DNA of 42,091 nt from the NCBI GenBank assembly GCA_903929315.1, contig CAIYUC010000108.1:1-42091 (forward strand). The letters run 5' to 3'. Each line of letters starts with the position of its first letter. Positions within the stretch are counted from its first letter, which is position 1. Source of the stretch: an uncultured Bacteroidales bacterium. Its GTDB lineage: Bacteria > Bacteroidota > Bacteroidia > Bacteroidales > FEN-979. This document shows positions 1-27,501 of the stretch, one piece after another. The position numbers and the translations under genes are program-made. The notes under the pieces are model-generated. The model saw only the letters and a program-made list of their open reading frames with translations. It had not been told where the DNA came from and made no database searches.

Positions 1-149
1 AATAAAGTGTCCACTACATTTTTTTAAAAATATAAATTTCTATTTTCTATAAAAATGAATATCAGTAAGTTATAAAATAAAAATATGCTAAAACGGCAAT
101 CTGCTGTCAAAGTCGGGAGTAAAATGTTAGAGTTGTATTCTTTGTGTTA

Positions 150-731: not shown

Positions 732-2159
732 TCATAATAAGCCTTTCTTCATCCAATCTTTCCGGATCCTCAGCATCGTCCTGAACATCGGCTCATTCAG
801 GTTTTTGTTTGTTCTCAGTTCGATTGCTTCTTTCATCATTTCTGGCGGAGGACTGGTTTCGATCGCGGGTATGCAATTCGGACGGGTTTTTGATGCCTCT
901 TTAATGAGATGGTCAATCCTTGGTTTCTCCATGGTACCGGAAAAGTAAAAAACCGGCGGGTAAAATACCGATTGGCCTGGTTTGATCTTCCCCTCATCAA
1001 CAGCGATCGAATAGAGAGGAGTTTTTGGATAGATCCGTAAACCGGCCGTCATATAAACCAGGTCATCCGGGTTAACAAATTTATCAATGAAGTCAATGGT
1101 CTCCCGGAACGTCTGTTCGTCTTCACCAGGTCCGCCGAAAAGGAAAAACCACATAGTAGGAAGATCGAATTTGCGTATCAGCAAAGCCATCTTTTCAATT
1201 TCCTCCCGGTTGAATCCCTTGTCGAGTTTTTCCAGAACCGTTGACGATGCACTGTCAGGAGTTGCATCGATCTGTGTAAAACCGGCTTCCCTCATAAGGT
1301 TGAAGAGTTCTTCACTGGTATGTCGAGGGTTGATCCCCATAGTCCGTAGCCGGATCTTTATCTTTTTCTTAATAATCTCCCTGCATATGGCTTCGGCATG
1401 ACCCTCGGGATCATTAAACGTTGAATCTACAAACTCGAACATAATTTCCCCAAGTCTTTTATGCGCTTCTTCAATTTCATCAGCAATCCCGACCGGACTC
1501 CTCATCCGGAACCGGTTCCCTTCCAAAACCGGATAGGTGCAATAAATGCAACCATGGGAACATCCACGCTTGGTTTGAATGGAATAAGCGCCTCGCTGTA
1601 CATACGGCCTGAAATCGATGTGACGATCAATCCCGGAGAATTTCAGTTTTGCTATATCCCTGTATATATATTGGAAAATGTTTTCGGAAGTCTTTGAATT
1701 TGCAACAATGATATTTGGGATGTGCGAAATGTCCCCACCATTGTCAAGACATTTTAATAAGTAACGAAAACTTTCTTCCGCTTCACCTATAATCCCATAA
1801 TCGGCGCTTGTCCGTACCATTAATTCCTCCGGGAAAATACTGAAGCCACTACCACCGAGGATGATGGGAACAGATGTTACTTTTTTCACCGGCTCGATAA
1901 AATCGGAAATGATCTTATCCACATAAAATACCTGCCGGTCTGCCACAATATCATCAATGTTCCGGATACTGAAACCGATATAATCAGGATCGAATGTTAG
2001 TAGTTCGCTTATCAAATGCGTCCCTTCATCAAAAACCCCATCATAGATCTTTACATTATAATTATCATCCAGGCTGGAAGCAAGAAGACATAATCCCAGC
2101 GGTGGTACCGGATAAGGAGATTTTTCGGTGTTGGTATTTATCAAAAAAACTTTCTTCAT
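732..2159 (-). CDS. B12-binding domain/radical SAM protein
   Basis: 475 aa; N-terminal Rossmann-like cobalamin-binding-type region followed by CxxxCxxC in 'RGCSHGCIYCTYP'. Confidence 0.88.
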   Translation of the reverse strand: MKKVFLINTNTEKSPYPVPPLGLCLLASSLDDNYNVKIYDGVFDEGTHLISELLTFDPDYIGFSIRNIDDIVADRQVFYVDKIISDFIEPVKKVTSVPIILGGSGFSIFPEELMVRTSADYGIIGEAEESFRYLLKCLDNGGDISHIPNIIVANSKTSENIFQYIYRDIAKLKFSGIDRHIDFRPYVQRGAYSIQTKRGCSHGCIYCTYPVLEGNRFRMRSPVGIADEIEEAHKRLGEIMFEFVDSTFNDPEGHAEAICREIIKKKIKIRLRTMGINPRHTSEELFNLMREAGFTQIDATPDSASSTVLEKLDKGFNREEIEKMALLIRKFDLPTMWFFLFGGPGEDEQTFRETIDFIDKFVNPDDLVYMTAGLRIYPKTPLYSIAVDEGKIKPGQSVFYPPVFYFSGTMEKPRIDHLIKEASKTRPNCIPAIETSPPPEMMKEAIELRTNKNLNEPMFRTMLRIRKDWMKKGLL

Positions 2160-2168
2160 TTCTCGCAG

Positions 2169-3509
2169 TTATATAACATCATCTCCTTTCTTAATCAACC
2201 ATAACGCTCCTACCCTTTCGTGAAATTCGTCGTGAGGCAGAACGGTTTTCATTACCGAATTAAAAAAATTGTATTTTTTATAGTTATTATCGGTGATCTG
2301 ATTTTTTACCTGGTTGAAATAAACCGTTCCGGGCATTGGCGTGAGTATGGTATACCCGGCATAGACAACCCTGTTCCGGCCTGCATATTCAGCCAGGGCT
2401 TCAAAATCATCAACAACATAATCATTCGGAATGACATAATTTCCGCGAACCATAATACCGTTTTGCTCGAAAATTTTTATGGCTTCCTGGTTATATCTTG
2501 CCGGTGATTCCTTGTTGTATTTTTTCAGTTCCTTATCACGAAAAGACTCGAAACCGCAGATCACCACTTTCAATCCTCCTTTTGCAAGTTTCCCGATCAG
2601 TCCGGGTTGTTGCACTACGATATCTGCACGTATATCCATGATAAAGGTCTTTCTGATCCCTTCTTCAGTGATACGGTCGAAAAGACGGTTGATAAAGTCA
2701 AGGTCCACGATGGTATTGGCATCGGCGAAACGAACCACAGGATATTCATCGATTGATTTGAGCTCGTCGATCAGGCTTTCCACACTTCGCTGGAAATATT
2801 TTCCCCTGAATTGGGTCCAGATCGAACAGAATGTACATCTGTAAGGACAACCAAGAGAAGTATAAACATAAGTTGAAGGATCAGGACTTCCCCCGACTTT
2901 ATAAGTATTGATCCATCTTCTCAGGTGACTGCGATCGGGAAGCAGATACGCTCCATTTATAATGTCAATAACACGTGGTTTTCCATTTGTTCTGATCAAT
3001 CCGTCAGCAGAGTTAATCAGTATTCCCTGAATCAACGAAAAATCCTTTCCTGCTTCTTTTGCATCCACTACATCCCTGAAAATATGAGCACACTGACCGG
3101 GGATCACAATATCCACCGAAGGATCGGTGAAATCCATAGGACAAAGTGTGGCATGTAAACCGCCCGCGACCGTAAGAATTGAAGGATCAAATAATTTGGC
3201 TGTTTTACAGACTTCAGTAGCGTAATCAAATTCCGATGTTATGACTGTTACCCCAACAATATCAGGTTTGTGAATCGCAAGCAGATTTTGAATTAACAGC
3301 GTTAAAGTCGGAGTTTCCGGATCCAGGTCATACTCGCCTTTGGTATCAAATACAATAACATCATGGTCTTTCACTGCTGCGGCAATGGTGAGTAATCCCA
3401 AAGGCGGACCAATGAGTTTTTTATGAATAAAAGGCTTAGCCTCCTCAGGGGCAAACTTAAGGATATTATTTTCCGGAGACCGTGGTGGATTGATCAGTAA
3501 TATTTTCAT
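2169..3509 (-). CDS. B12-binding domain/radical SAM protein
   Basis: 446 aa; 'MKILLINPPRSPE...GPPLGLLTIAAAV' B12-binding-type N-terminus and 'LGCPYRCTFCSIW' CxxxCxxC; 9 nt from the next radical SAM gene. Confidence 0.9.
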   Translation of the reverse strand: MKILLINPPRSPENNILKFAPEEAKPFIHKKLIGPPLGLLTIAAAVKDHDVIVFDTKGEYDLDPETPTLTLLIQNLLAIHKPDIVGVTVITSEFDYATEVCKTAKLFDPSILTVAGGLHATLCPMDFTDPSVDIVIPGQCAHIFRDVVDAKEAGKDFSLIQGILINSADGLIRTNGKPRVIDIINGAYLLPDRSHLRRWINTYKVGGSPDPSTYVYTSLGCPYRCTFCSIWTQFRGKYFQRSVESLIDELKSIDEYPVVRFADANTIVDLDFINRLFDRITEEGIRKTFIMDIRADIVVQQPGLIGKLAKGGLKVVICGFESFRDKELKKYNKESPARYNQEAIKIFEQNGIMVRGNYVIPNDYVVDDFEALAEYAGRNRVVYAGYTILTPMPGTVYFNQVKNQITDNNYKKYNFFNSVMKTVLPHDEFHERVGALWLIKKGDDVI

Positions 3510-3547: not shown

Positions 3548-3620
3548 ACAAATAAAGGGTTGAGGCTTCAGGCTGCAGGCTTCATGTGGAATTGTAAATT
3601 CCCGGTCACTAATTTTTTTG

Positions 3621-3628
3621 TATTTTTG
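3621..3628 (+). promoter_or_regulatory. Candidate Bacteroidota -7 element (TATTTTTG) for the glycosyltransferase operon
   Basis: TAnnTTTG match 32 nt upstream of ATG at 3660; lies inside the over-extended ORF start at 3618. Confidence 0.35.
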
Positions 3629-3659
3629 TTCACATTCTAACTGTTCCGGATCTCAGGAA

Positions 3660-4859
3660 ATGCACGATTTTACAAGGATCAAACAACAATTCTCTGATTT
3701 GAAGTGTTGCGTTATTATTCCTACCTTTAATAATGACAAAACATTGGAGACGGTCATCCGGGATGTGCAAAATTATACCGATGCTATTATTATCGTGAAT
3801 GACGGCTCAACCGATAATACTTCAAGGATCCTTAATCATTACGGACATTTTTTTGTTCTGAGCCATGAACATAACAGAGGTAAAGGGCTTGCATTGAGGA
3901 CAGGCTTTACTTTTGCGATCAGCAGAGGTTTTCATTATGCCATCACGATCGACTCCGATGGACAACATTTCCCCGCTGACCTTCCTGAATTTGCTACCTG
4001 GATTGAAAAGGACCCCGACTCCCTGATCGTCGGAGCACGTAATATGACCCAATCGGGGGTTCCCGGAACCAGCAGTTTTGGTCATAAATTTTCGATCTTC
4101 TGGTTCAGGGTGGAGACAGGATTAAAGATCCCAGATGCCCAATCTGGTTTCCGGTTATACCCTCTCGATAAAATCAAAGATATCAGGTTTTATACAACAA
4201 AATATGAATTTGAGGTTGAAATTCTTGTTAGGGCAGCATGGAAAGGAATAAAAATCCTTTCTATTCCAATTAATGTCTATTACGCACCAAAAGAAGAAAG
4301 AGTAACACATTTCCGGAAATTCAGGGATTTCACTCGGGTTAGTATCGTCAATACCGTCCTTGTGCTCATGGCAATATTCTGGTTCAGGCCTTTCATGCTT
4401 TTCAGGGATCTTCGGAAAAAATCGTTGAAACAATTTATCAGGGAATATGTGCTCGATAGCAACGACTCGAACACAAAACTGGCAATATCTATTGCTGTCG
4501 GGCTCTTTATCGGTGTGACCCCGATCTGGGGCTGGCAAATGGTGGTCGCATTCGGAATTGCTCATATGGTAAAACTCAATAAATTCGTCACACTGGCAGC
4601 AGCAAATATAAGCCTCCCTCCTTTGGTGCCGCTGATCCTCTTTCTAAGTTACGTTTGCGGCGGACTTATTTTACGCAAAGAGACTTCACTTATGAATTAC
4701 CATTCAGGCCTTACGCTCGAATGGGTGAAACATAATCTTTTTCAATATATCATTGGCAGCTTTATCCTCGGTCTCTGTCTTGCAATGGTTTTTGGTGTTT
4801 CTTCTTATATTTTATTGAGAATTTTCAGGAAAAGAAGACCTGTAATGATAAAGGATTAA
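3660..4859 (+). CDS. Glycosyltransferase family 2 (dolichol-phosphate-mannosyltransferase-like) with C-terminal DUF2062 domain
   Basis: 'CCVIIPTFNNDKTLETVIRDV...IIVNDGSTDNT...ITIDSDGQHFPADLP' GT-A motifs; C-terminal 'GLFIGVTPIWGWQMVVAFGIAH' DUF2062-like; ATG 3660 preferred over track start 3618. Confidence 0.88.
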   Translation: MHDFTRIKQQFSDLKCCVIIPTFNNDKTLETVIRDVQNYTDAIIIVNDGSTDNTSRILNHYGHFFVLSHEHNRGKGLALRTGFTFAISRGFHYAITIDSDGQHFPADLPEFATWIEKDPDSLIVGARNMTQSGVPGTSSFGHKFSIFWFRVETGLKIPDAQSGFRLYPLDKIKDIRFYTTKYEFEVEILVRAAWKGIKILSIPINVYYAPKEERVTHFRKFRDFTRVSIVNTVLVLMAIFWFRPFMLFRDLRKKSLKQFIREYVLDSNDSNTKLAISIAVGLFIGVTPIWGWQMVVAFGIAHMVKLNKFVTLAAANISLPPLVPLILFLSYVCGGLILRKETSLMNYHSGLTLEWVKHNLFQYIIGSFILGLCLAMVFGVSSYILLRIFRKRRPVMIKD

Positions 4860-10315: not shown

Positions 10316-12017
10316 AAAAAAACTCAAAAGTTGGAAAAGAATAACTATTTTCCTGGGTGTCAGCTTAGGTTTTATCCTCTTAGTGGTCGTTGGATTTCAT
10401 TATGCTACATGCATACAACCTCCAGTCCCGGACGATCTGGGTTCTTTATCCTTAAAGATCGACAATCCCGAAAAGGATTTCTTTACCTGTGGGAACAACT
10501 GGTTAAAAAAAAGCAATTCCGGTCTTTGGGAGTTGTACCTTGAAGGAAAACCTTTTGAAAGAGGTGTTATAAACGGCAAATTGACAAAAGTTCTTATCGA
10601 AAAACAGGAAGAAGCTTTCACTGGCCGGATAAGGGAAATAATTCCGTCGCCAATGTATCTCCGGTTCCTGAAATATTTCATTTATTGGTTTAACCGTAAC
10701 CTGGATAAATACATCCCTGAAGAATATAAACTTGAGATCTATGGTATTTCATTATCCGCCTCAGAAAAATATTCTTTTATCGGCTCAAATTACCAGCGCA
10801 TGCTCAATTATCATTCTGCCCATGATATTGGTCATGCATTGCAAAATATGGGGTTGGTAGGATGTACTTCCTTTGGTGTATGGGGTGATAAATCCCTGGA
10901 TGGATCTCTTTTGATCGGCCGGAATTTTGATTTTTATGTCGGGGATCCATTTGCGGAAAACAAGCTCGTCTGTTTTGAAAAACCGGCTAAAGGTTATCCT
11001 TTTATGATGATTGGCTGGGGCAGTATGATCGGTGTTTTGTCAGGCATGAATGATAAAGGATTGACCGTTACCATTAATGCTGCAAGATCGGAAATACCTT
11101 ATTCAGCAAGGACACCTATTTCGATCATGGCCAGGGAGATTCTCCAGTATGCAAAGAATATCCATGAAGCTTGTGAAATTGCAAAAAAAAGTGAGACGTT
11201 CATATCGGAATCCATATTGATCGGGTCAGCAGAGGATAACAAAGCCGTCATTATTGAAAAGTCCCCTTCTCAGATCGCGATCAATGACCCAAAAGCGAAT
11301 TATATTGTCTGTGCAAATCATTTTCAAAATCCGGTTTTTTTCAATGACTCGAAAAACCGTAAAGACCGTCAGGAAAATGCATCTGTTTACAGGTATAAAA
11401 GGGTTTTGCAGGATATTACAGAGGAGCAGCCGCTCGACATAAGCAAGGTAGCAGCTATTTTACGTGACCGGTCAGGGTTGAACAATGCGAATATCGGTAT
11501 GGGTAACGAAAAAGCTATCAACCAGCTTATCGCGCATCATTCCGTGATTTTCGAACCGTCCAGACAGCTCGTCTGGATTTCCACGAATCCATGGCAACTG
11601 GGTAGTTATGTTTGTTATGACCTGAATAAAATTTTTCATACTTTTGCCGGGTTGCAGCGGAAGGTTGAAATAACGGCACAGGATAATATCCTTCCTGCAG
11701 ATCCCTTTATAGGTTCAGATGATTACTGTCATTTCCTCAGGTTCAGGCAAATGCGCAAGGTTATTAAAACCGTTACTGAATCTAATGAGATCCTGACGCT
11801 GCCGGATTCTTTTATCCGTGAATTTATTATGACCAATCCTGAATATTTTGAAGTATATTCAGTTACAGGTGATTATTATCAACATATAAACCGTCCGGAT
11901 AGTGGGATGATCAATTTCAGAAGGGCGCTTCACAAAGAAATACCACGCTGGAGTGAAAAGAAGAAAATTATTGAGAAGATGAGCGGTTGTGTTCTACAAA
12001 CTAAACGAATGAAATAA
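10308..12017 (+). CDS. C45 family Ntn-hydrolase/acyltransferase (acyl-CoA:6-aminopenicillanic acid acyltransferase-like)
   Basis: 'GLVGCTSFGVWG...LLIGRNFDF...GMNDKGLTVTINA'; candidate nucleophile Cys186 (codon 10863); N-terminal TM segment; ATG 10308 (MPEKK) overlaps the upstream stop, preferred over 10275. Confidence 0.87.
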   Translation: MPEKKLKSWKRITIFLGVSLGFILLVVVGFHYATCIQPPVPDDLGSLSLKIDNPEKDFFTCGNNWLKKSNSGLWELYLEGKPFERGVINGKLTKVLIEKQEEAFTGRIREIIPSPMYLRFLKYFIYWFNRNLDKYIPEEYKLEIYGISLSASEKYSFIGSNYQRMLNYHSAHDIGHALQNMGLVGCTSFGVWGDKSLDGSLLIGRNFDFYVGDPFAENKLVCFEKPAKGYPFMMIGWGSMIGVLSGMNDKGLTVTINAARSEIPYSARTPISIMAREILQYAKNIHEACEIAKKSETFISESILIGSAEDNKAVIIEKSPSQIAINDPKANYIVCANHFQNPVFFNDSKNRKDRQENASVYRYKRVLQDITEEQPLDISKVAAILRDRSGLNNANIGMGNEKAINQLIAHHSVIFEPSRQLVWISTNPWQLGSYVCYDLNKIFHTFAGLQRKVEITAQDNILPADPFIGSDDYCHFLRFRQMRKVIKTVTESNEILTLPDSFIREFIMTNPEYFEVYSVTGDYYQHINRPDSGMINFRRALHKEIPRWSEKKKIIEKMSGCVLQTKRMK

Positions 12018-13288
12018 TGAAGTTCAGACTCATTTATCCCCGATGGGAAAAGCTCGAAGGACAGACACTGTTTTCTCTTCCTCCACATGGTCCTGTTGTG
12101 ATGGCTGCTGCAATCCCCGGTGATGTTGAAATTGATTTTATTGACGAGAATGTTGAAGATCTTGTAATTGATGATACTTCTGATTTTATAGGGATCTCAA
12201 TGATGCTTACGACACAGGTCAAGAGAGGGTGGGCCATTGCAGATGAGTTCAGGAAATTAGGAAAGAAAGTTATCTTCGGAGGTATTTCTACCATGCTCCA
12301 TGCCGAAGAAACCCTGCCTCATGCAGATTCGGTATTCCTGGGGGAAGTGGAAGGACGGCTTAAGAACGTTTTTGATGATTTCCATGCGAATCGCCTTCAG
12401 AAGATTTACAATTACCTGAATAATCCCCCCCTCATGGAGCTTATCGGCCCGGCACGCAGGGATATCCTTAAAAAAGACCTTTATTATCACAAGGGATTCC
12501 GTATGGTCGATCTTTTCCATGCCTCCCGCGGGTGTATCTATGATTGTTATCCTTGTGCAGTACGTTATCTGGGTGGACGGGGTTTCCGTCCCAGACCGAT
12601 GGATAAGGTTATTGAAGAGCTGTCAGCGCTGGATAATAACCGGCTTTTCATCGTGGATAATTCACTGGCATTGGATTCCGGTTGGGAAAAAGAGCTTTTC
12701 AGGGCAATGATCCCGTTAAAAAAGAAATGGGTAAGCCATACCATAGAAGATAAGCCGGAAATTCTTGATCTTGCTGCACAGGCCGGCGCATGGTATGTTT
12801 ACCAGGCCATTTTCGATACTTCCGATTACATCAAAAACCGGATCAAACAGTATCACGATTATGGAATAGGTGTTGAAGGGACTATTCTTCTTGGCCTGGA
12901 TAACCAAACCGAAGATGATATCAAAAGACTGATCGATTTTCTGTTCGAAATCAATCTCGATCTTGCAGAATTTACGATTCTTGCACCATTTCCCCATACA
13001 AAAGCGTATACCGACCTCAGAAAACAAAACCGTATTTTCGATTATGACTGGGATCATTACAATGCCGGGAAAGTTGTTTATTATCCAAAAAATATGTCCC
13101 CTGAAAGGTTACAGGAGCTTTATCATTATGCCTGGGATGCATTCTATAAAAACGAACCCCAAACTCAAAAGATGTTTAACCTTCTCAGTGTCGTTTTACA
13201 ACGGGAAACAGATGATGGCACCTACCTTCCCAGGAGACGGGATCTGATAGACGAGAGCTTTGGGAAAAAAGTGGATAAAGTAGCATAA
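12017..13288 (+). CDS. B12-binding domain/radical SAM protein
   Basis: 423 aa; 'SRGCIYDCYPCAVR' CxxxCxxC, N-terminal B12-binding-type fold; TAATG overlap with the previous gene. Confidence 0.88.
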   Translation: MKFRLIYPRWEKLEGQTLFSLPPHGPVVMAAAIPGDVEIDFIDENVEDLVIDDTSDFIGISMMLTTQVKRGWAIADEFRKLGKKVIFGGISTMLHAEETLPHADSVFLGEVEGRLKNVFDDFHANRLQKIYNYLNNPPLMELIGPARRDILKKDLYYHKGFRMVDLFHASRGCIYDCYPCAVRYLGGRGFRPRPMDKVIEELSALDNNRLFIVDNSLALDSGWEKELFRAMIPLKKKWVSHTIEDKPEILDLAAQAGAWYVYQAIFDTSDYIKNRIKQYHDYGIGVEGTILLGLDNQTEDDIKRLIDFLFEINLDLAEFTILAPFPHTKAYTDLRKQNRIFDYDWDHYNAGKVVYYPKNMSPERLQELYHYAWDAFYKNEPQTQKMFNLLSVVLQRETDDGTYLPRRRDLIDESFGKKVDKVA

Positions 13289-13291
13289 AGA

Positions 13292-13678
13292 ATGGAGACA
13301 AACCCGGAATTCAGCAAATACATGAATTCATACTATGACTTTAAAGGTCTTTGGGATAGTCCTTCAAGGTGCGGCCTTTGTGTGATAAAGCGGACCGACA
13401 GGAATATCCTGGTTATTGTGACCGAGATCTATCGCCAGAACCCGGGTACAGCCGTAACGGAATGTGTTGCAACATTAGCAACCTGGCTATTAAAGGAATA
13501 CAAGGTCACCCCTGAAAATTTCATCTTCATTGAACATTCACCGGATTTGAAAAGTAAACTTACTTTCTACGGTGAAACCTTTGATCTTGTCAGTTTTGAC
13601 TGGGATGGGAATAATTTTACGAACCCGGTCTGGACAAGACTTTCCCAGGAAGTGGTAGATGTAATGATGAAGGCATGA
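13292..13678 (+). CDS. Conserved-looking hypothetical protein of 128 aa
   Basis: Good ORF tightly packed in the operon (3 nt after radical SAM gene, ATGA overlap with TonB receptor); no family recognised. Confidence 0.75.
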   Translation: METNPEFSKYMNSYYDFKGLWDSPSRCGLCVIKRTDRNILVIVTEIYRQNPGTAVTECVATLATWLLKEYKVTPENFIFIEHSPDLKSKLTFYGETFDLVSFDWDGNNFTNPVWTRLSQEVVDVMMKA

Positions 13679-20051: not shown

Positions 20052-21149
20052 ATGAAAGATGCTCGTGAGGTACGGAAGCTTCCACCTGTCTGGTTCATCA
20101 GATTACTCAGTAGCTTCCGCCAGGCTTTACTTTCCTTTAGTAAGAAAATCTACCCCGCCAATGTGGTTCTCTCAGAACATATCCAATATTTCTGGCTTCT
20201 TTCCTGCATCCGGGTTGCGGCTGAATTGAACATTGCAGAGATCCTGAAAAACGGGCCAAAGACGATCGGGGAAATTGCACAACTGACCGGTGCACATAGT
20301 GAATCGCTTCATCGAGTGATGCGTGCTTTAGCCAGCCAGGGTATTTTCAGGAAGAACAGGAACAACAGGTTTGCCAACACTTCGCTTTCAAAACCACTGA
20401 TTGATGGGAAAGGATCTTTACGGAATATGATAATGCAACACCTTGGTAAACTGAACTGGTCGGTATTCAACGAGATCTCATACACTGTTAAAACCGGGAA
20501 AGATGCTTTTTCAAAAGTTAATGGCAAAAGGATCTATGATTACTTGTCAGAGCACGAGGAAGAATGCGCACTATTTGATAAATCCATGACAGAACTCACA
20601 GATTTCTCCATTGAGCCTTTATTGAATTCCTATGATTTTTCCGGATATAAGACCATTGCTGACATCGGGGGAGGCGAAGGATTGCTTCTCGCCAATATTT
20701 TATTTAAACATAAAAACTCAAAGGGAATACTTATTGATTTACCGGCCGGCCTGAATAACTCACAAATGATTTTTGAGAAATACGGGGTGATGAACAGGGT
20801 GCAGATTATTCCCGGGAATTTTTTCGAGTCAATACCTGCATTGGCTGATGCCTATATCGTTAAAAATATTATTCCTAACTGGAGTGATGAGGAGGGAGCG
20901 ATGATCCTCTCCAATATCCGGCAGGTTCTCCCTGACAATGGCAAAATATTGCTTATTGAAATGGTTGTGGAAGAGGATAATCGTCCGTCCTATGGAAAAA
21001 TTATAGATATCCAGATGATGGTTTGTATGCAGGCCGGGAAAGAAAGGACCCGGAAAGAATTCCAGGCCATCATTGAAAAAGCAGGTTTAAAGATCAAAAG
21101 GATCGTCCCGACAATTGCGCCATTCAGCATTATCGAATTAATGAAATGA
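20052..21149 (+). CDS. Class I SAM-dependent methyltransferase, O-methyltransferase (ASMT/Methyltransf_2)-like
   Basis: N-terminal winged-helix dimerisation region 'AAELNIAEILKNGPKTIGEIAQLTGAHSESLHRVMRALASQGIF' and 'IADIGGGEGLLLANIL'. Confidence 0.9.
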   Translation: MKDAREVRKLPPVWFIRLLSSFRQALLSFSKKIYPANVVLSEHIQYFWLLSCIRVAAELNIAEILKNGPKTIGEIAQLTGAHSESLHRVMRALASQGIFRKNRNNRFANTSLSKPLIDGKGSLRNMIMQHLGKLNWSVFNEISYTVKTGKDAFSKVNGKRIYDYLSEHEEECALFDKSMTELTDFSIEPLLNSYDFSGYKTIADIGGGEGLLLANILFKHKNSKGILIDLPAGLNNSQMIFEKYGVMNRVQIIPGNFFESIPALADAYIVKNIIPNWSDEEGAMILSNIRQVLPDNGKILLIEMVVEEDNRPSYGKIIDIQMMVCMQAGKERTRKEFQAIIEKAGLKIKRIVPTIAPFSIIELMK

Positions 21150-21253: not shown

Positions 21254-22444
21254 ATGCAGAAGCTCCTTGCTGCCCTTTATAAAGAAATCCTTATTCTTTA
21301 CCGGGACCTCCCCGGATTACTCATCCTTTTTTTAATGCCGGTTATCCTGATCCTGATCGTAACTGTTGCACAGGAAAATGCAATGAAATGGTCGAAAGAA
21401 TCAAAGAGTGAAATCCTTTTTGTTGACCAATCACATTCAGCGACTTCAAAAGCAATCGGGCAAAGTCTTGATAATTCCGGGTTCTACACGTTGATCAAAG
21501 AATATAAGCATCAATCCTTGAATGTGGACGCAGTCACGAAACTAATCGCAGAAGGTGATTATTCCATTGGCATCATAATAGCGCGAAAAGATTCAGCAAT
21601 TCAACTATTGATCGACCCGGTACTGCAGGAACAATTTAAGAATTCAATCATTGCCTCTCTGACCTTTATTATTAAAGGTGCCCAAAGCAGGATTGCCATA
21701 GAAACACTCCTTAAGGCCATGGTTCCCGGGATGAATCAGGCAGTTGACGGGATCATCAGGTCCTCTTTGGATCATAATACTCCGGTAACAGAAGTCTATC
21801 CGGCCAAGGACAGATCTTTCATTAAACCTTCATTATCACAAAACAGTATTCCCGGGTTTATTCTTTTTGCTATGTTTTTCATTGTAATCCCTTTGTCAGG
21901 GAGCATGATCAACGAGAAAAATGAAGGTTCTTTTGCCCGTCTGAAAACATTGCCAGTGCCTGTTTCCATCCTTTTAACATCCAAAGTGATCGGCTATCTT
22001 GCCGTTTGTCTTATTCAATTTGCCCTGATGCTGGCCATAGGTGTTTGGGTCCTCCCGGCATTTTTTGGACTGCCGGCATTCCATCCTGGAAATCAACACC
22101 TTGCTATTATACTCACAACCCTGGCTTCGAGCCTTGCGGCGATCGGTTTCGGCCTTATCGTCGGGGCCTGTTCTACCACCCATGGACAAGCGGCTTTGTT
22201 TGGATCTGTGATGGTAGTCATTCTGGGAATTATAAGCGGATCGTTTCTCCCGGTGCATCTGTTTCCGAAAGTTTTCCAGTACCTGAGCTCTATCTCCCCT
22301 GTCCGCTGGGGAATTGATAATTACCTGGACATTTTTGTCCGGGGAGAAACCCTTGCCAACATTGTTCCCAATATTTTATTATTACTTTTGTTTTTTGTTT
22401 TTGCATTGATCATTTCCATTTTTATTTTTGCAAAACCGAAATAA
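21254..22444 (+). CDS. ABC-2 type transporter permease
   Basis: 396 aa; N-terminal TM, large extracytoplasmic segment, five-plus C-terminal TMs, 'MINEKNEGSFARLKTLPVPVSILLTSKVIGYL'. Confidence 0.9.
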   Translation: MQKLLAALYKEILILYRDLPGLLILFLMPVILILIVTVAQENAMKWSKESKSEILFVDQSHSATSKAIGQSLDNSGFYTLIKEYKHQSLNVDAVTKLIAEGDYSIGIIIARKDSAIQLLIDPVLQEQFKNSIIASLTFIIKGAQSRIAIETLLKAMVPGMNQAVDGIIRSSLDHNTPVTEVYPAKDRSFIKPSLSQNSIPGFILFAMFFIVIPLSGSMINEKNEGSFARLKTLPVPVSILLTSKVIGYLAVCLIQFALMLAIGVWVLPAFFGLPAFHPGNQHLAIILTTLASSLAAIGFGLIVGACSTTHGQAALFGSVMVVILGIISGSFLPVHLFPKVFQYLSSISPVRWGIDNYLDIFVRGETLANIVPNILLLLLFFVFALIISIFIFAKPK

Positions 22445-22471
22445 ACACCAATTTTCAAGAAATCCTTTTCA

Positions 22472-22981
22472 ATGAAGGAAAAAGATGGTTATATCAATTG
22501 TCCGGAACAGCAGGTTATCCTGTACGTGGAGAAAGAAGACGGGCAATACGGGCCCATGCAGACAGGATCATACCTTTCCGGGAATTACCTTGACGATTAC
22601 GAAATAAAACGGGTTCACCTTGAAGAATCTTTACGAATCCGTGTAATGAAGGGTGAAATAAGCATGGTGAAGTATTATATGGTTCTTGAAGACCTTACAC
22701 TTTCTGAACTAGCCGCAAGAGTGGGCTTGAGTAAAACAAAAGTCAATAGACATCTTGATCCTGTTCATTTTGGCAAAGCGAAAGTTGAGACACTTAAAAA
22801 ATATGCAGACGTTTTCAATGTTCCCGTATCAAATATGTTGCAGGTCATAATGCTGAAAAAAGGTGATAACCTTGAATCCTATACTGTCCTCGAAGAGAAA
22901 AAACAAACCGAAGGCATTGAACAAGTGAAAACAGAAAACCCATATGTGATGCTGGTTATAATCGGTGAGAAAAGAAAATGA
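22472..22981 (+). CDS. Helix-turn-helix (XRE-like) domain protein
   Basis: 'LTLSELAARVGLSKTKVNRHLDPVHFGKAKVETLKKYADVFNVPVSNML' HTH-like; ATGA overlap with the next gene. Confidence 0.72.
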   Translation: MKEKDGYINCPEQQVILYVEKEDGQYGPMQTGSYLSGNYLDDYEIKRVHLEESLRIRVMKGEISMVKYYMVLEDLTLSELAARVGLSKTKVNRHLDPVHFGKAKVETLKKYADVFNVPVSNMLQVIMLKKGDNLESYTVLEEKKQTEGIEQVKTENPYVMLVIIGEKRK

Positions 22982-23985
22982 TTACCATCCCCTACAAGCA
23001 TAAAATGGCGGCACATTGTGAGTCGGGAAGTATCACTTCCCTTCTTAACAATGCAGGTCTTGATATTACGGAACCTATGGTATTCGGGATCTCCAGCGGT
23101 ATTTTCTTCGGGTACTTTCATAAAATGAAATCTTTCCCCTTTCCAACGTTTATTGTCAGGAACAAACCCGGAAAAATGCGCGAGAACCTGACCAAACGGG
23201 CAGGCATAAAATTCCATACCTATACATTCAAGGATCCTGAAAAGGGGCGGCAAATGCTTAACCGTTTATTGGAACAGAATATTCCTACCGCAGCCCAGGT
23301 CGATTTCTTTTATATGGATTACATCCCCTCCTGGGAAAGAGTTCATATCAATGTCCATTTTATTGTGGTTGTAGGCCTGAATACCTATCATTATCTTGTC
23401 AGTGACAGCTATTTCCCGGAGCTGGTGTCACTGAAAACGGAATCTCTGAACACGGCCCGATTTGCAGGCGGTAATATGTCGCCAAAAGGTTTTTTATTTC
23501 ATCCTGAATTCATACCTAAAGATATTGATTACGAAAAGGCCATTATCAAGGGAATTAAAAAATCATGTTTCAATATGTTAAAGATCCCTATCCCCTTCCT
23601 GGGTGTAAAAGGGATCCGTTTATTTGCGAAGAAGATCATAGAATGGCCTTCACTGGCAAGGGATACGGAACATCTCTCACATGAGATCATGAAAATCAAT
23701 ATTCTGCTGGAAGACCAGGGCACCGGTGGCGGAGGATTTCGTTTTATGTTTGCTACTTTCCTTCAACAAGCCGCAGGCATGATTAATGAACCTGAGCTTC
23801 TTGACTTCTCAAAAAAAATGATGGAGATCGGGGATGGTTGGAGAGAATTCTCCCTGTTGGCTGCCAGGTTTGGTAAGAATCGTGACCTGGGCCCGGAACG
23901 AATGAAAGAATTATCCGAAAAGCTGATGGATCGGGCACAGGTAGAACAGCAATTCTTCTCCCAACTTTATAAAACTATAAAATAA
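22978..23985 (+). CDS. BtrH N-terminal domain-containing (butirosin BtrH-like) acyltransferase
   Basis: 335 aa; 'MAAHCESGSITSLLNNAG' with Cys14 (codon 23017), 'VHINVHFIVVVG', 'LVSDSYF' consistent with a Cys-His-Asp arrangement. Confidence 0.85.
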   Translation: MITIPYKHKMAAHCESGSITSLLNNAGLDITEPMVFGISSGIFFGYFHKMKSFPFPTFIVRNKPGKMRENLTKRAGIKFHTYTFKDPEKGRQMLNRLLEQNIPTAAQVDFFYMDYIPSWERVHINVHFIVVVGLNTYHYLVSDSYFPELVSLKTESLNTARFAGGNMSPKGFLFHPEFIPKDIDYEKAIIKGIKKSCFNMLKIPIPFLGVKGIRLFAKKIIEWPSLARDTEHLSHEIMKINILLEDQGTGGGGFRFMFATFLQQAAGMINEPELLDFSKKMMEIGDGWREFSLLAARFGKNRDLGPERMKELSEKLMDRAQVEQQFFSQLYKTIK

Positions 23986-23995
23986 AACCAATCCA

Positions 23996-24292
23996 ATGAC
24001 TGAAATACCTTCTGCAGAACTGAAGATGGAGATCAAAAAACTCATCATGAATACCCTCAACATTAATGATGTTAACCCGGCAGAGGTGGATGATGAACTT
24101 CCTCTTTTCGGGGGAGGTAATAAGCTTTCACTGGATTCAGTCGATGCACTGGAAATAATTATGGCGATCCAGCGAACATATCAGGTCCGGATCGCCGATC
24201 AAAATCTGGCACGATATACACTCAGATCCATCAACAGTATCGCCGAATTTATTGAATCAGAAAAAGCCAAGCAACATCCTGAAACAAAATAG
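23996..24292 (+). CDS. Acyl carrier protein
   Basis: 98 aa; 'LSLDSVDALEIIMAIQRTYQVRI' with candidate phosphopantetheine Ser48 (codon 24137). Confidence 0.93.
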   Translation: MTEIPSAELKMEIKKLIMNTLNINDVNPAEVDDELPLFGGGNKLSLDSVDALEIIMAIQRTYQVRIADQNLARYTLRSINSIAEFIESEKAKQHPETK

Positions 24293-24295
24293 CTC

Positions 24296-25402
24296 TTGAA
24301 AAACTCCTATCTCACAGCAGGCATAAGTCTTCCTAATCTATTACGTCTGCTTCGCAGAAACGAGATCTCCTTCCGGCCAAAATATTTATTCAGGCTTCTT
24401 TTTTTACTTCAAAGTGCATTATGGTCATCTTTTTTTGCGCTCATCGAAAAAGTAAAGTATGAGAAAAAGATCCGGAAGGTTGCAATACCTGAAGATCCTG
24501 TTTTTATTATCGGGCACTGGAGGTCAGGGTCGACATTTCTTCACCAGCTGATGAGCCTGGATCCAAATTTCACTGTGCCAACCCTTTTCAAGGTGGCAAT
24601 TCCGGATAGTTTTCTTTCATCCCATAAATATTATAAACCAATCATGAGCTCCATGGTGAGTAAAATCAGACCCATGGACAAGGTAAGGCTTGGGATGGAT
24701 GAACCACAGGAAGATGAATATGCTGTTTATAGGATCACTCAATTCTCTCCTCTTGAAAGGCTTGTTTTTCCTAATAATTCTAATTATTTTCTGCTGGATC
24801 TCGCTTCTTTTCTTCCGGAAAATTCTCACCTGGCAGATTGGGAACAGAAACTCGTTTGGTATTTCAGGAAGTTATCTTTTAAATCGGGAAAACCTATTGT
24901 TTCCAAAAATCCTTTCAATTCTTTACGTATCAGGGAACTGAACAAACTTTTTCCTGAAGCCCGTTTTATCCATATTTACAGGAATCCCTTTGATGTCATC
25001 CCATCTACGATTCATATGTGGAATATTATTCAGCAACAGAATTCGCTCAACCGTCAGGGAAGAAAACCTGAACTGGATGAAGTTGTGACAGTCTTTGACC
25101 GGGTATTATCTGCCATACGTAAAGACAAGGAGTCATTGCCGGAAAACAGGTTCTACGAAATGCCATTCGAGGACCTGGAATCAGACCCAGTGAAAGAAAT
25201 AACCAAACTTTATAAAGCTTTTAACCTGAGCTATAACAATGAATTTGAGAAAAAGATGAAATCGTTCTTATCAGAAATGCAAGGATTCAAAAAAAATGTT
25301 TTTCAACTTACCCTTGAGGAAAAGACATTGATCTATGACAGACTCCGCCATCAAATGGAACATTATGGTTATAGTCAGAATTATATAGGATCGATCCAAT
25401 AA
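24296..25402 (+). CDS. Sulfotransferase family protein
   Basis: 'PVFIIGHWRSGSTFLHQLMSLDP' 5'-phosphosulfate-type loop and 'RFIHIYRNPFDVIPSTIHMW' 3'-phosphate-type motif; TTG start 4 nt after ACP stop. Confidence 0.88.
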   Translation: MKNSYLTAGISLPNLLRLLRRNEISFRPKYLFRLLFLLQSALWSSFFALIEKVKYEKKIRKVAIPEDPVFIIGHWRSGSTFLHQLMSLDPNFTVPTLFKVAIPDSFLSSHKYYKPIMSSMVSKIRPMDKVRLGMDEPQEDEYAVYRITQFSPLERLVFPNNSNYFLLDLASFLPENSHLADWEQKLVWYFRKLSFKSGKPIVSKNPFNSLRIRELNKLFPEARFIHIYRNPFDVIPSTIHMWNIIQQQNSLNRQGRKPELDEVVTVFDRVLSAIRKDKESLPENRFYEMPFEDLESDPVKEITKLYKAFNLSYNNEFEKKMKSFLSEMQGFKKNVFQLTLEEKTLIYDRLRHQMEHYGYSQNYIGSIQ

Positions 25403-25455: not shown

Positions 25456-26166
25456 ATGAAGAAAGTTTTTCCTGTTTCTCTATTGCTATTGTGTAACTTA
25501 TATTTAAATTCCTTTAGCCAGGATACCATAGTAAAAAAATCATCATTGCATGAGAACTATATCCTTAACAGATCTTATCTTAAAATCGGGGCTTCATTAC
25601 CGGCGGGTTTATATGGGAAGGACCAATTATTCAAAGCGTACAATAATCCTGATCCCAATAATAATTACGTCATCTATCCGGCTGCAAAATTAGGCGGTGT
25701 TCTGGATGTGGGATGCCTGATTTACCTCGGGCCGGCATTCGCCGGAAATCGGCTGCGGGCAGGCATTGACGCGACTTTGTTTTCTTTAGCATTTAACCAA
25801 ACCGATCTCCCCTATTACCCTCAGGATGAGAATAATAAATGGAAATTCTGGTACTTCTATCTCGGTCAGAAATTCGGACCTGTTTTTACAATCAATCCCT
25901 TTGACCGGTTAATGATCGATTTGTCATATAAGTTGAATGCCTACATGTCATACTTGCATCATCAATTCGAAGGGGATTGGAAAGATGACTGGGGGAAAAA
26001 TCTGCTGCAAAGTGAAGTGAGTCTCAACATCAGATATCGTATCATCATTGCTTCCTTTCAGTACAACTTCGGTGAGTGCCTGTATAACAGGTTCGATACC
26101 AAAGACCCCAGCTACAAAATTGACAATTCAACATTTCGTGTCCTTGTCGGATTTGTTTTTCACTAA
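25456..26166 (+). CDS. Secreted/outer-membrane beta-barrel-like hypothetical protein
   Basis: Signal peptide 'MKKVFPVSLLLLCNLYLNSFSQ'; alternating amphipathic strands; ends in aromatic 'VLVGFVFH'. Confidence 0.7.
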   Translation: MKKVFPVSLLLLCNLYLNSFSQDTIVKKSSLHENYILNRSYLKIGASLPAGLYGKDQLFKAYNNPDPNNNYVIYPAAKLGGVLDVGCLIYLGPAFAGNRLRAGIDATLFSLAFNQTDLPYYPQDENNKWKFWYFYLGQKFGPVFTINPFDRLMIDLSYKLNAYMSYLHHQFEGDWKDDWGKNLLQSEVSLNIRYRIIIASFQYNFGECLYNRFDTKDPSYKIDNSTFRVLVGFVFH

Positions 26167-26184
26167 TAACTGTTGACATTAAGC

Positions 26185-27501
26185 ATGAATACTATCAACT
26201 TCTTCCCTGAAATTGAGAAGCAGACCGCTAGAAAGATCAATAGATTCCAGGATGAACTATTGCATAAGTTGTTGGTCTATCTTAATCGCAATTCGCGTTT
26301 CTATTCAAATCTTTTCAGGAAATTTCATATTGATCCAGGCAGTATAAATGGATTGACTGACCTTGTTCATATCCCTGTTACCACAAAGGACCACCTTCAG
26401 CAATACAATGAGGATTTTATCTGTGTTACCCGGGAGAAGATCATCGATTATATCACTACTTCCGGTACGATGGGAGATCCTGTAACTTTTGCTATGACCG
26501 ACAAAGACCTCGACCGGTTAGCTTATAATGAAGCGATTTCATTTACCTGTGCCGACGGGTTAAAAGGCGATATTTATCAACTGATGACCACTCTCGACCG
26601 TCGGTTTATGGCAGGACTTGCCTATTTTCTTGGCATTAGAATGATGGGGGCCAGTATTGTCCGTGTTGGGAATGGTATCCCTGAACTTCAATGGGATACC
26701 ATCCGTCGTATCCACCCAAATACCATAATTGCCGTTCCATCTTTTATTCTTAAGATCATTGAATATGCTGAAACAAATGGAATTGATTACCGGGCCAGCA
26801 GCATCAGGAAAGCAGTCTGCATCGGTGAACCTCTAAGAAACAATGATCTGTCATTGAATACACTGGGGCGTAAGATTACAGAGAAATGGCCCATTACTCT
26901 TTATTCTACTTATGCCTCCACTGAAATGGGAACTTCTTTTACGGAATGCGGCGAAGGGATCGGAGGGCATCACCATCCTGAACTGATCATTGTGGAATTC
27001 CTTGACGAAAACGATAAACCCGTAAAGGAAGGTGAACCCGGTGAAGTTACCGTCACCACCCTTGGAGTTGAAGGAATGCCCTTGCTCCGTTTTAAAACCG
27101 GGGATGTTTGTTATCATTATACCGGTTCCTGTAAATGCGGACGTACCACGATCAGGCTCGGCCCGGTCATCGGCCGTAAGAAACAAATGATCAAATACAA
27201 AGGAACGACCCTCTACCCGCCTGCTTTTTATGATGTCCTTGATAATATCGATTATATCACGAATTATTTCATAGAAGTCTATACCAATGAAATCGGGACA
27301 GATGAAATCCTGATCCATGTAGGTAGTAGCAGATCCATTGAAGATGCAGAGAAGGATATCAAAGACCATTTCAGGGCAAAGCTTCGTGTAGCGCCGTTGA
27401 TTAAATTCGAATCGGCAGAAACCATCCGGAAGATCCAATTTCCCGAAACCAGCCGAAAAACCGTTAAATTCATCGATAACCGAAAAAAAATAAAATCATA
27501 A
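26185..27501 (+). CDS. Adenylate-forming enzyme, phenylacetate-CoA ligase/CapK-like
   Basis: 'DYITTSGTMGDPVTFAMT', 'LYSTYASTEMGTSFTEC', 'LLRFKTGDVCYHY...CKCGRTTIRLGPVIGRKKQMIKYKGTTLYPP'; ATG 26185 preferred over TTG 26173. Confidence 0.88.
   Translation: MNTINFFPEIEKQTARKINRFQDELLHKLLVYLNRNSRFYSNLFRKFHIDPGSINGLTDLVHIPVTTKDHLQQYNEDFICVTREKIIDYITTSGTMGDPVTFAMTDKDLDRLAYNEAISFTCADGLKGDIYQLMTTLDRRFMAGLAYFLGIRMMGASIVRVGNGIPELQWDTIRRIHPNTIIAVPSFILKIIEYAETNGIDYRASSIRKAVCIGEPLRNNDLSLNTLGRKITEKWPITLYSTYASTEMGTSFTECGEGIGGHHHPELIIVEFLDENDKPVKEGEPGEVTVTTLGVEGMPLLRFKTGDVCYHYTGSCKCGRTTIRLGPVIGRKKQMIKYKGTTLYPPAFYDVLDNIDYITNYFIEVYTNEIGTDEILIHVGSSRSIEDAEKDIKDHFRAKLRVAPLIKFESAETIRKIQFPETSRKTVKFIDNRKKIKS

Follow-up and report, generated by a model that had tools for sequence, protein, structure and literature searches.

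The window analysed here, a 42,091-nucleotide stretch of DNA from an uncultured Bacteroidales bacterium (assembly GCA_903929315.1), is an entire contig (CAIYUC010000108.1, C108). Between positions 21254 and 25402 it carries five open reading frames (ORFs), all on the + strand, for an ATP-binding cassette (ABC) permease, a helix-turn-helix (HTH) protein, a BtrH-like protein of the DarH family (here named DarHw), an acyl carrier protein (ACP) and a sulfotransferase:

21254..22444, + strand, ABC-2 type permease; PF12698, 118 bits
22472..22981, + strand, DarG-family HTH protein of 169 aa; overlaps DarH by 4 nt and lies upstream of DarH in quartet loci
22978..23985, + strand, DarHw, predicted BtrH-fold acyltransferase with likely triad C14/H127/D143; NF053550, 322 bits, cut-off 300
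23996..24292, + strand, ACP with attachment Ser48 in LDSVD; PF00550
24296..25402, + strand, 3′-phosphoadenosine-5′-phosphosulfate (PAPS)-dependent sulfotransferase (Sulfotransfer_3) with a TTG start; PF13469, 113 bits

A first-pass annotation of this DNA had given the five ORFs at these positions, with an ATGA overlap of the HTH and DarH genes at 22978-22981 and gaps of 10 nt (DarH-ACP) and 3 nt (ACP-sulfotransferase), all of which proved exact; the gap between the permease and HTH genes is 27 nt. The identities it had assigned to the five products were confirmed by profile matches, except that the HTH protein is DarG-like at scores below the cut-offs, its top NCBIfam matches being DarG models at 59 and 56 bits (NF053536, 56 against a cut-off of 70). 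The last four genes are referred to below as the quartet.

Orthologs of the sulfotransferase were found in 33 of the 43 genomes of the family, own genome included, at 44-58% identity, and the order permease-DarG-DarH-ACP-sulfotransferase was kept within the family wherever the contig permits, with few exceptions (~30 genomes). The same order recurs in other lineages with sulfotransferase identities of 39-58%, and since it is seen in some 30 family genomes and beyond, it is not due to chance. Most of the compared genomes are metagenome-assembled genomes (MAGs) with broken contigs, and some record titles probably reflect mis-binning; the more distant ortholog carriers are Bacteroidales MAGs and records titled Chlorobiota, Fibrobacterota and Neomarinimicrobiota. 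Two loci in records titled Chlorobiota and Alphaproteobacteria (L107 and L109) bear Bacteroidales-like clusters and are probably mis-binned; an apparent loss of the ACP in L109 was rejected as an ORF-calling artefact, the reading frame being present. In non-family loci, the genes that come next after the quartet are usually a B12-radical S-adenosylmethionine (SAM) gene, a small conserved gene and a TonB-plug-like gene. The sulfotransferases form a clade with 100/100 support; 45 of its members have 1.5 kb or more of upstream sequence, and in 42 of these DarH lies directly upstream. Sulfotransferases of ≤36% identity do not adjoin DarH. In a sample of 396 genomes of the phylum, DarH was present in 32, own genome included, and none of the other 31 had a sulfotransferase above 31% identity; the earlier remark that flexirubin-type loci do not usually include a sulfotransferase is in keeping with this lack of an ortholog. 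Together, the four genes are a deeply conserved functional unit of a pigment-like lipid gene cluster of uncultured Bacteroidales. In L258 (genome G013) the cluster is rearranged, and ketosynthase (KS1)-like, LolA, MMPL, CrtI and C45 genes interrupt its series of DarG/DarH genes. The neighbors of the sulfotransferase gene are aminopeptidase/DUF2141 genes in L112, sugar genes in L116 and lipocalin/cellulase genes in L128.

The five genes had been described as a mini-operon, and the conserved functional neighborhood stands, but the unit is larger: they lie at the 3′ end of a cluster of ~60 kb, the 3′ half of which is the window and the 5′ half a second contig, C15. About 119 bp at the end of C15 are identical to window positions 1-119, with a transposase adjoining on C15, and in three genomes (G032, G007 and G031) a single contig carries the same gene order unbroken from the FlxA end to FlxY. 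Given the common end and the continuous order in these genomes, C15 and the window very probably belong to a single cluster that an insertion element interrupts. C15 holds the tyrosine ammonia-lyase FlxA (NF053541, 857 bits, cut-off 700), several ketosynthase (KS) genes, ketoreductase, dehydratase, thioesterase, deacetylase, LolA, ACP, FabD and radical SAM genes, two DarG-DarH pairs, an ABC ATPase with a permease, and the transposase at its end; part of these names come from reading of sequences and matches, not from profile scans. The ATPase partner of the permease at 21254..22444 is probably the one on C15 (L004:12857-13609), and an ATPase gene together with a permease gene stands immediately 5′ of the quartet in L117, L124 and L133. 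The flanking amidohydrolase, DUF6580, MutL, rhomboid and UvrB genes are likewise kept across the family, which points to vertical inheritance of the cluster.

Flexirubins are tyrosine-initiated polyenes esterified to a dialkylresorcinol. The cluster resembles the flexirubin flx/dar clusters of Chitinophaga pinensis and Flavobacterium johnsoniae (PMC3992019) in having the initiators FlxA and FlxY above cut-offs and many KS genes, and comparison with canonical loci added GT2 glycosyltransferase, MMPL/PlsC, LolA, deacetylase, C45 and desaturase-like genes and DarG-DarH with ABC genes. In contrast to those clusters, it has a distinct DarH-ACP-sulfotransferase module and five B12-radical-SAM genes, and the resorcinol genes were not detected. 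DarA was found in 0 of the 43 family genomes, in a searched set that held no DarA-positive genome, the sensitivity of the search resting on the 40% identity among canonical DarA proteins (40-50% to each other). The best relative of DarB, a divergent ketosynthase III (KSIII) at C15:27001-28134 (L005), was only 23-26% identical, as against 53% among canonical DarB. This KSIII was missed by a PF08541 search and found with the DarB query, and the absence of DarB was therefore judged by identity and not by domain. Since the resorcinol features were not found, the cluster is filed as a variant of the flexirubin clusters and not as a member.

As to the proteins of the quartet, DarHw also matched PF14399 (132 bits, cut-off 29.7) and PF16169 (153 bits), and its C14, H127 and D143 are invariant in 21 sequences. 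In a tree built by a quick method it formed a clade of its own, separate from canonical DarH and from the remaining DarH proteins of the family. The structural model of DarHw (pLDDT 82.5) matched AziU3 (AziU2-U3 on top), CtaG of closthioamide and CcbD of celesticetin, with which it shares the BtrH fold at only 10-15% identity over the fold alignments; with BtrH of butirosin it shares the BtrH_N domain. H127 and D143 align with CtaG residues taken as H128 and D144 (crystallised variants H128A and D144N), the numbering offset of six being our own reading, with the D144N chain showing Asn at that column; Cys14 was matched to the triad Cys by position only. The above-cut-off NF053550 match, the triad and the predicted fold make it plausible that DarHw is a carrier-protein-dependent acyltransferase, as the first-pass annotation had proposed; no DarH assay was found in the BtrH literature. 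In the ACP, D47 and S48 are invariant in 50 of 50 aligned sequences, S48 being the predicted phosphopantetheine attachment site. Both PAPS motifs of the sulfotransferase (G73-H74-W75-R76...G78...T80 and R229...S237) are invariant, and its model (pLDDT 90.9) was closest to mycobacterial STF1/STF9, followed by tyrosylprotein sulfotransferases, OLS and CurM. An adenosine-5′-phosphosulfate kinase gene is present in the genome (C178:30332-30775), indicating that PAPS can be made.

Natural absences of single steps bear on how the quartet is used. FlxA above the cut-off was not found in four genomes (G036, G037, G039 and G041), nor was FlxY in any of them, and all four retain the quartet and a large part of the other pathway genes (L253-L256). 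These MAGs are 83-95% complete and incompleteness may explain part of the pattern, yet FlxA and FlxY are absent as a pair in all four. Because the quartet is kept where both are absent, FlxY is probably not the loader of this ACP and the obligatory sulfation site is probably not the tyrosine-derived phenol; the pattern also suggests that the four genomes use another starter unit. The sulfotransferase, in turn, was not found between the ACP and the next gene in six genomes that keep DarH-ACP (G006, G034, G018, G017, G016 and G024). Genome-wide, five of these had no sulfotransferase match and G017 had only matches of 26-33%. The absence of the sulfotransferase alone points to sulfation as an optional tailoring step. 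Such absences offer a way to test the assignment through a comparison of genome content with lipids.

We consider it probable, if well short of certain, that the quartet and the ABC-2 permease together carry out the late steps, namely acyl transfer, sulfation and export, in a flexirubin-like type II polyketide cluster of ~60 kb that lacks dialkylresorcinol synthesis. FlxA and FlxY would supply a 4-coumaroyl starter, which would be lengthened by the ketosynthases, ketoreductase and dehydratases encoded on C15, and the B12-radical-SAM enzymes might then alter the chain. The ACP, phosphopantetheinylated at Ser48, would offer an acyl group to DarHw, which would hold it as a Cys14 thioester through the Cys-His-Asp triad and hand it on to an acceptor with a hydroxyl or amine group. 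With PAPS as donor, the sulfotransferase would then sulfate a free hydroxyl on this product, probably as a last and dispensable modification, and the ABC and MMPL transporters would export the lipid. Established here are which genes are present, the motifs and predicted fold, the conservation of gene order, the co-occurrence at the level of the clade and the patterns of absence; the substrates, the order of the steps and the chemistry we infer. The data suggest that uncultured Bacteroidales make a sulfated, resorcinol-free flexirubin relative, so far undescribed.

Several points weigh against this assignment. Three sulfotransferase clade members (L112, L116 and L128) carry the gene away from DarH, and the DarA search was made without a positive genome in the set. 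The acceptors of CtaG, CcbD and BtrH are amines, in pathways of the peptide or aminoglycoside type, and ester formation by DarHw is thus an extrapolation. In addition, BtrH-fold AziU3 is described not as an acyltransferase but as an aziridine synthase working via sulfate displacement (PMC12559475). An azinomycin-like scheme can be drawn from this, in which the sulfotransferase sulfates a hydroxyl of the ACP-bound chain and an AziU3-fold DarHw displaces the sulfate, closing a ring or forming a bond. The top fold match of DarHw to AziU2-U3, the pathway described for AziU3/U2 and the strict adjacency of the ACP, DarH and sulfotransferase genes all speak for it. We nevertheless regard it as unlikely, for DarHw retains a complete acyltransferase-like triad, the six genomes without the sulfotransferase keep DarHw and the ACP, and canonical DarH occurs in genomes that do not have this sulfotransferase. 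Quite unlikely, too, is its extension to a whole undescribed class of resorcinol-free lipids, whose polyene chains would be reshaped on the ACP by the B12-radical-SAM enzymes, O-sulfated to create a leaving group and cyclised or coupled by DarHw.

A mechanism of the CurM/OLS type, in which a β-hydroxyacyl-ACP is sulfated and then decarboxylated on release by a thioesterase, so that a terminal alkene results (mechanism described in PMC3903477), would fit the ACP gene immediately 5′ of the sulfotransferase, the thioesterase-like gene in the 5′ half and the nearest relatives of solved structure, which include the sulfotransferase domains of CurM and OLS. The fold is nearer to STF1/STF9 (TM 0.56-0.67) than to CurM (0.41), however, and the constant partner across the ACP is DarH: a dedicated sulfotransferase-thioesterase pair was not seen, the sulfotransferase standing alone with the gene at 25456-26166 and FlxY directly 3′. 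As the sulfotransferase is also missing from otherwise intact loci, we downgraded such activation to very unlikely. The first-pass annotation had instead let a CapK-like ligase adenylate an acid and load this ACP, followed by transfer to an amine in the manner of BtrH, then sulfation and export. The ligase does lie near in the window and BtrH has such chemistry in butirosin synthesis, but the ligase is FlxY, and loading by it was dropped as a model given the four quartet-keeping genomes without FlxA and FlxY; nor is an amine acceptor required, since that of BtrH is not transferable by homology alone. The sulfation step that it places next is plausible. The route as a whole we rate as the least likely of all. 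That the sulfotransferase serves another product, such as a surface polysaccharide or lipid, and is merely located here would account for the three clade members outside the cluster, one of them near sugar genes, and for the six otherwise similar loci that have no sulfotransferase. Throughout the family, and also in divergent clusters whose order otherwise differs, the clade nevertheless stays next to the ACP, and we think this explanation just as unlikely as the azinomycin-like one.

Among other known systems, the arcuflavin dar locus of Azoarcus BH72 (PMC3949708) likewise combines a BtrH-like protein, an ACP and an ABC permease/ATPase in a polyene-ester locus; it differs in having DarA and DarB, and the main text of that paper does not contain the word sulfotransferase. 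The ladderane-type clusters known from Kuenenia and Desulfotalea (PMC2649909) share several radical SAM, desaturase-like, phenylacetyl-CoA-ligase-like, glycosyltransferase and FabF-like genes with the present cluster, and a TIGR04072 radical SAM protein on C15 scored above the cut-off (425 bits against 360); this is a shared gene only and does not imply ladderane production. FlxA and DarH set the present cluster apart from these, and an ammonia-lyase and a sulfotransferase are unmentioned in PMC2649909. CurM and OLS have the sulfotransferase fold in common with the present enzyme, but theirs is a megasynthase domain and the gene order differs; AziU3/U2 shares the BtrH fold, there linked with sulfate chemistry, but AziU3 is an aziridine synthase and the gene order again differs. 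As for single enzymes, the C. pinensis FlxY homolog is a 4-coumarate-CoA ligase (PMC3992019), and CtaG is proposed to shift 4-hydroxybenzoate between carrier proteins, onto a chain on the second one (PMC6772006). In the literature searched, no paper joins flexirubin with a sulfotransferase and none flexirubin with radical SAM. A whole uncultured Bacteroidales family and more distant lineages carry the polyene part of such clusters without the resorcinol genes, plus a dedicated acyltransferase, carrier protein and sulfotransferase; if the assignment is true, a sulfated resorcinol-free lipid would be new relative to that literature.

The remaining features of the cluster in the window are:

732..2159, − strand, B12-binding radical SAM protein, ladderane-cluster type; TIGR04072, 320 bits, below the cut-off of 360; syntenic in relatives
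2169..3509, − strand, B12-binding radical SAM protein; PF02310 and PF04055; syntenic in relatives
3618..4859, + strand, GT2 glycosyltransferase with DUF2062; counterpart in canonical flexirubin locus L211
4896..8750, + strand, MMPL exporter/PlsC acyltransferase/methyltransferase fusion; related protein in L211
8783..10315, + strand, phytoene-desaturase-like flavoprotein; counterpart in L211
10275..12017, + strand, C45 (AAT-type) acyltransferase/hydrolase; NF040521, 228 bits, cut-off 85; counterpart in L211
12017..13288, + strand, B12-binding radical SAM protein; weak Pfam scores, below cut-off; directly 3′ of the quartet in most non-family loci
13292..13678, + strand, small conserved protein after the radical SAM gene; no Pfam match; 41-68% identity in relatives
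20052..21149, + strand, O-methyltransferase; PF00891, 141 bits; position kept in the family, usually adjoining the permease
25456..26166, + strand, conserved protein with no Pfam match; position kept, often between the sulfotransferase and FlxY
26173..27501, + strand, FlxY, putative 4-coumarate-CoA ligase; NF053551, 719 bits, cut-off 520

The first start codon of FlxY is a TTG at 26173 and an ATG follows at 26185, the position under which the CapK-like ligase had been annotated. The five radical SAM genes, all apparently B12-binding, are the two at 732-3509 on the − strand and the one at 12017-13288 in the window, together with L004:8117-9475 and C15:28073-29677 (L005). The small protein at 13292-13678 trails the radical SAM gene in almost every locus.

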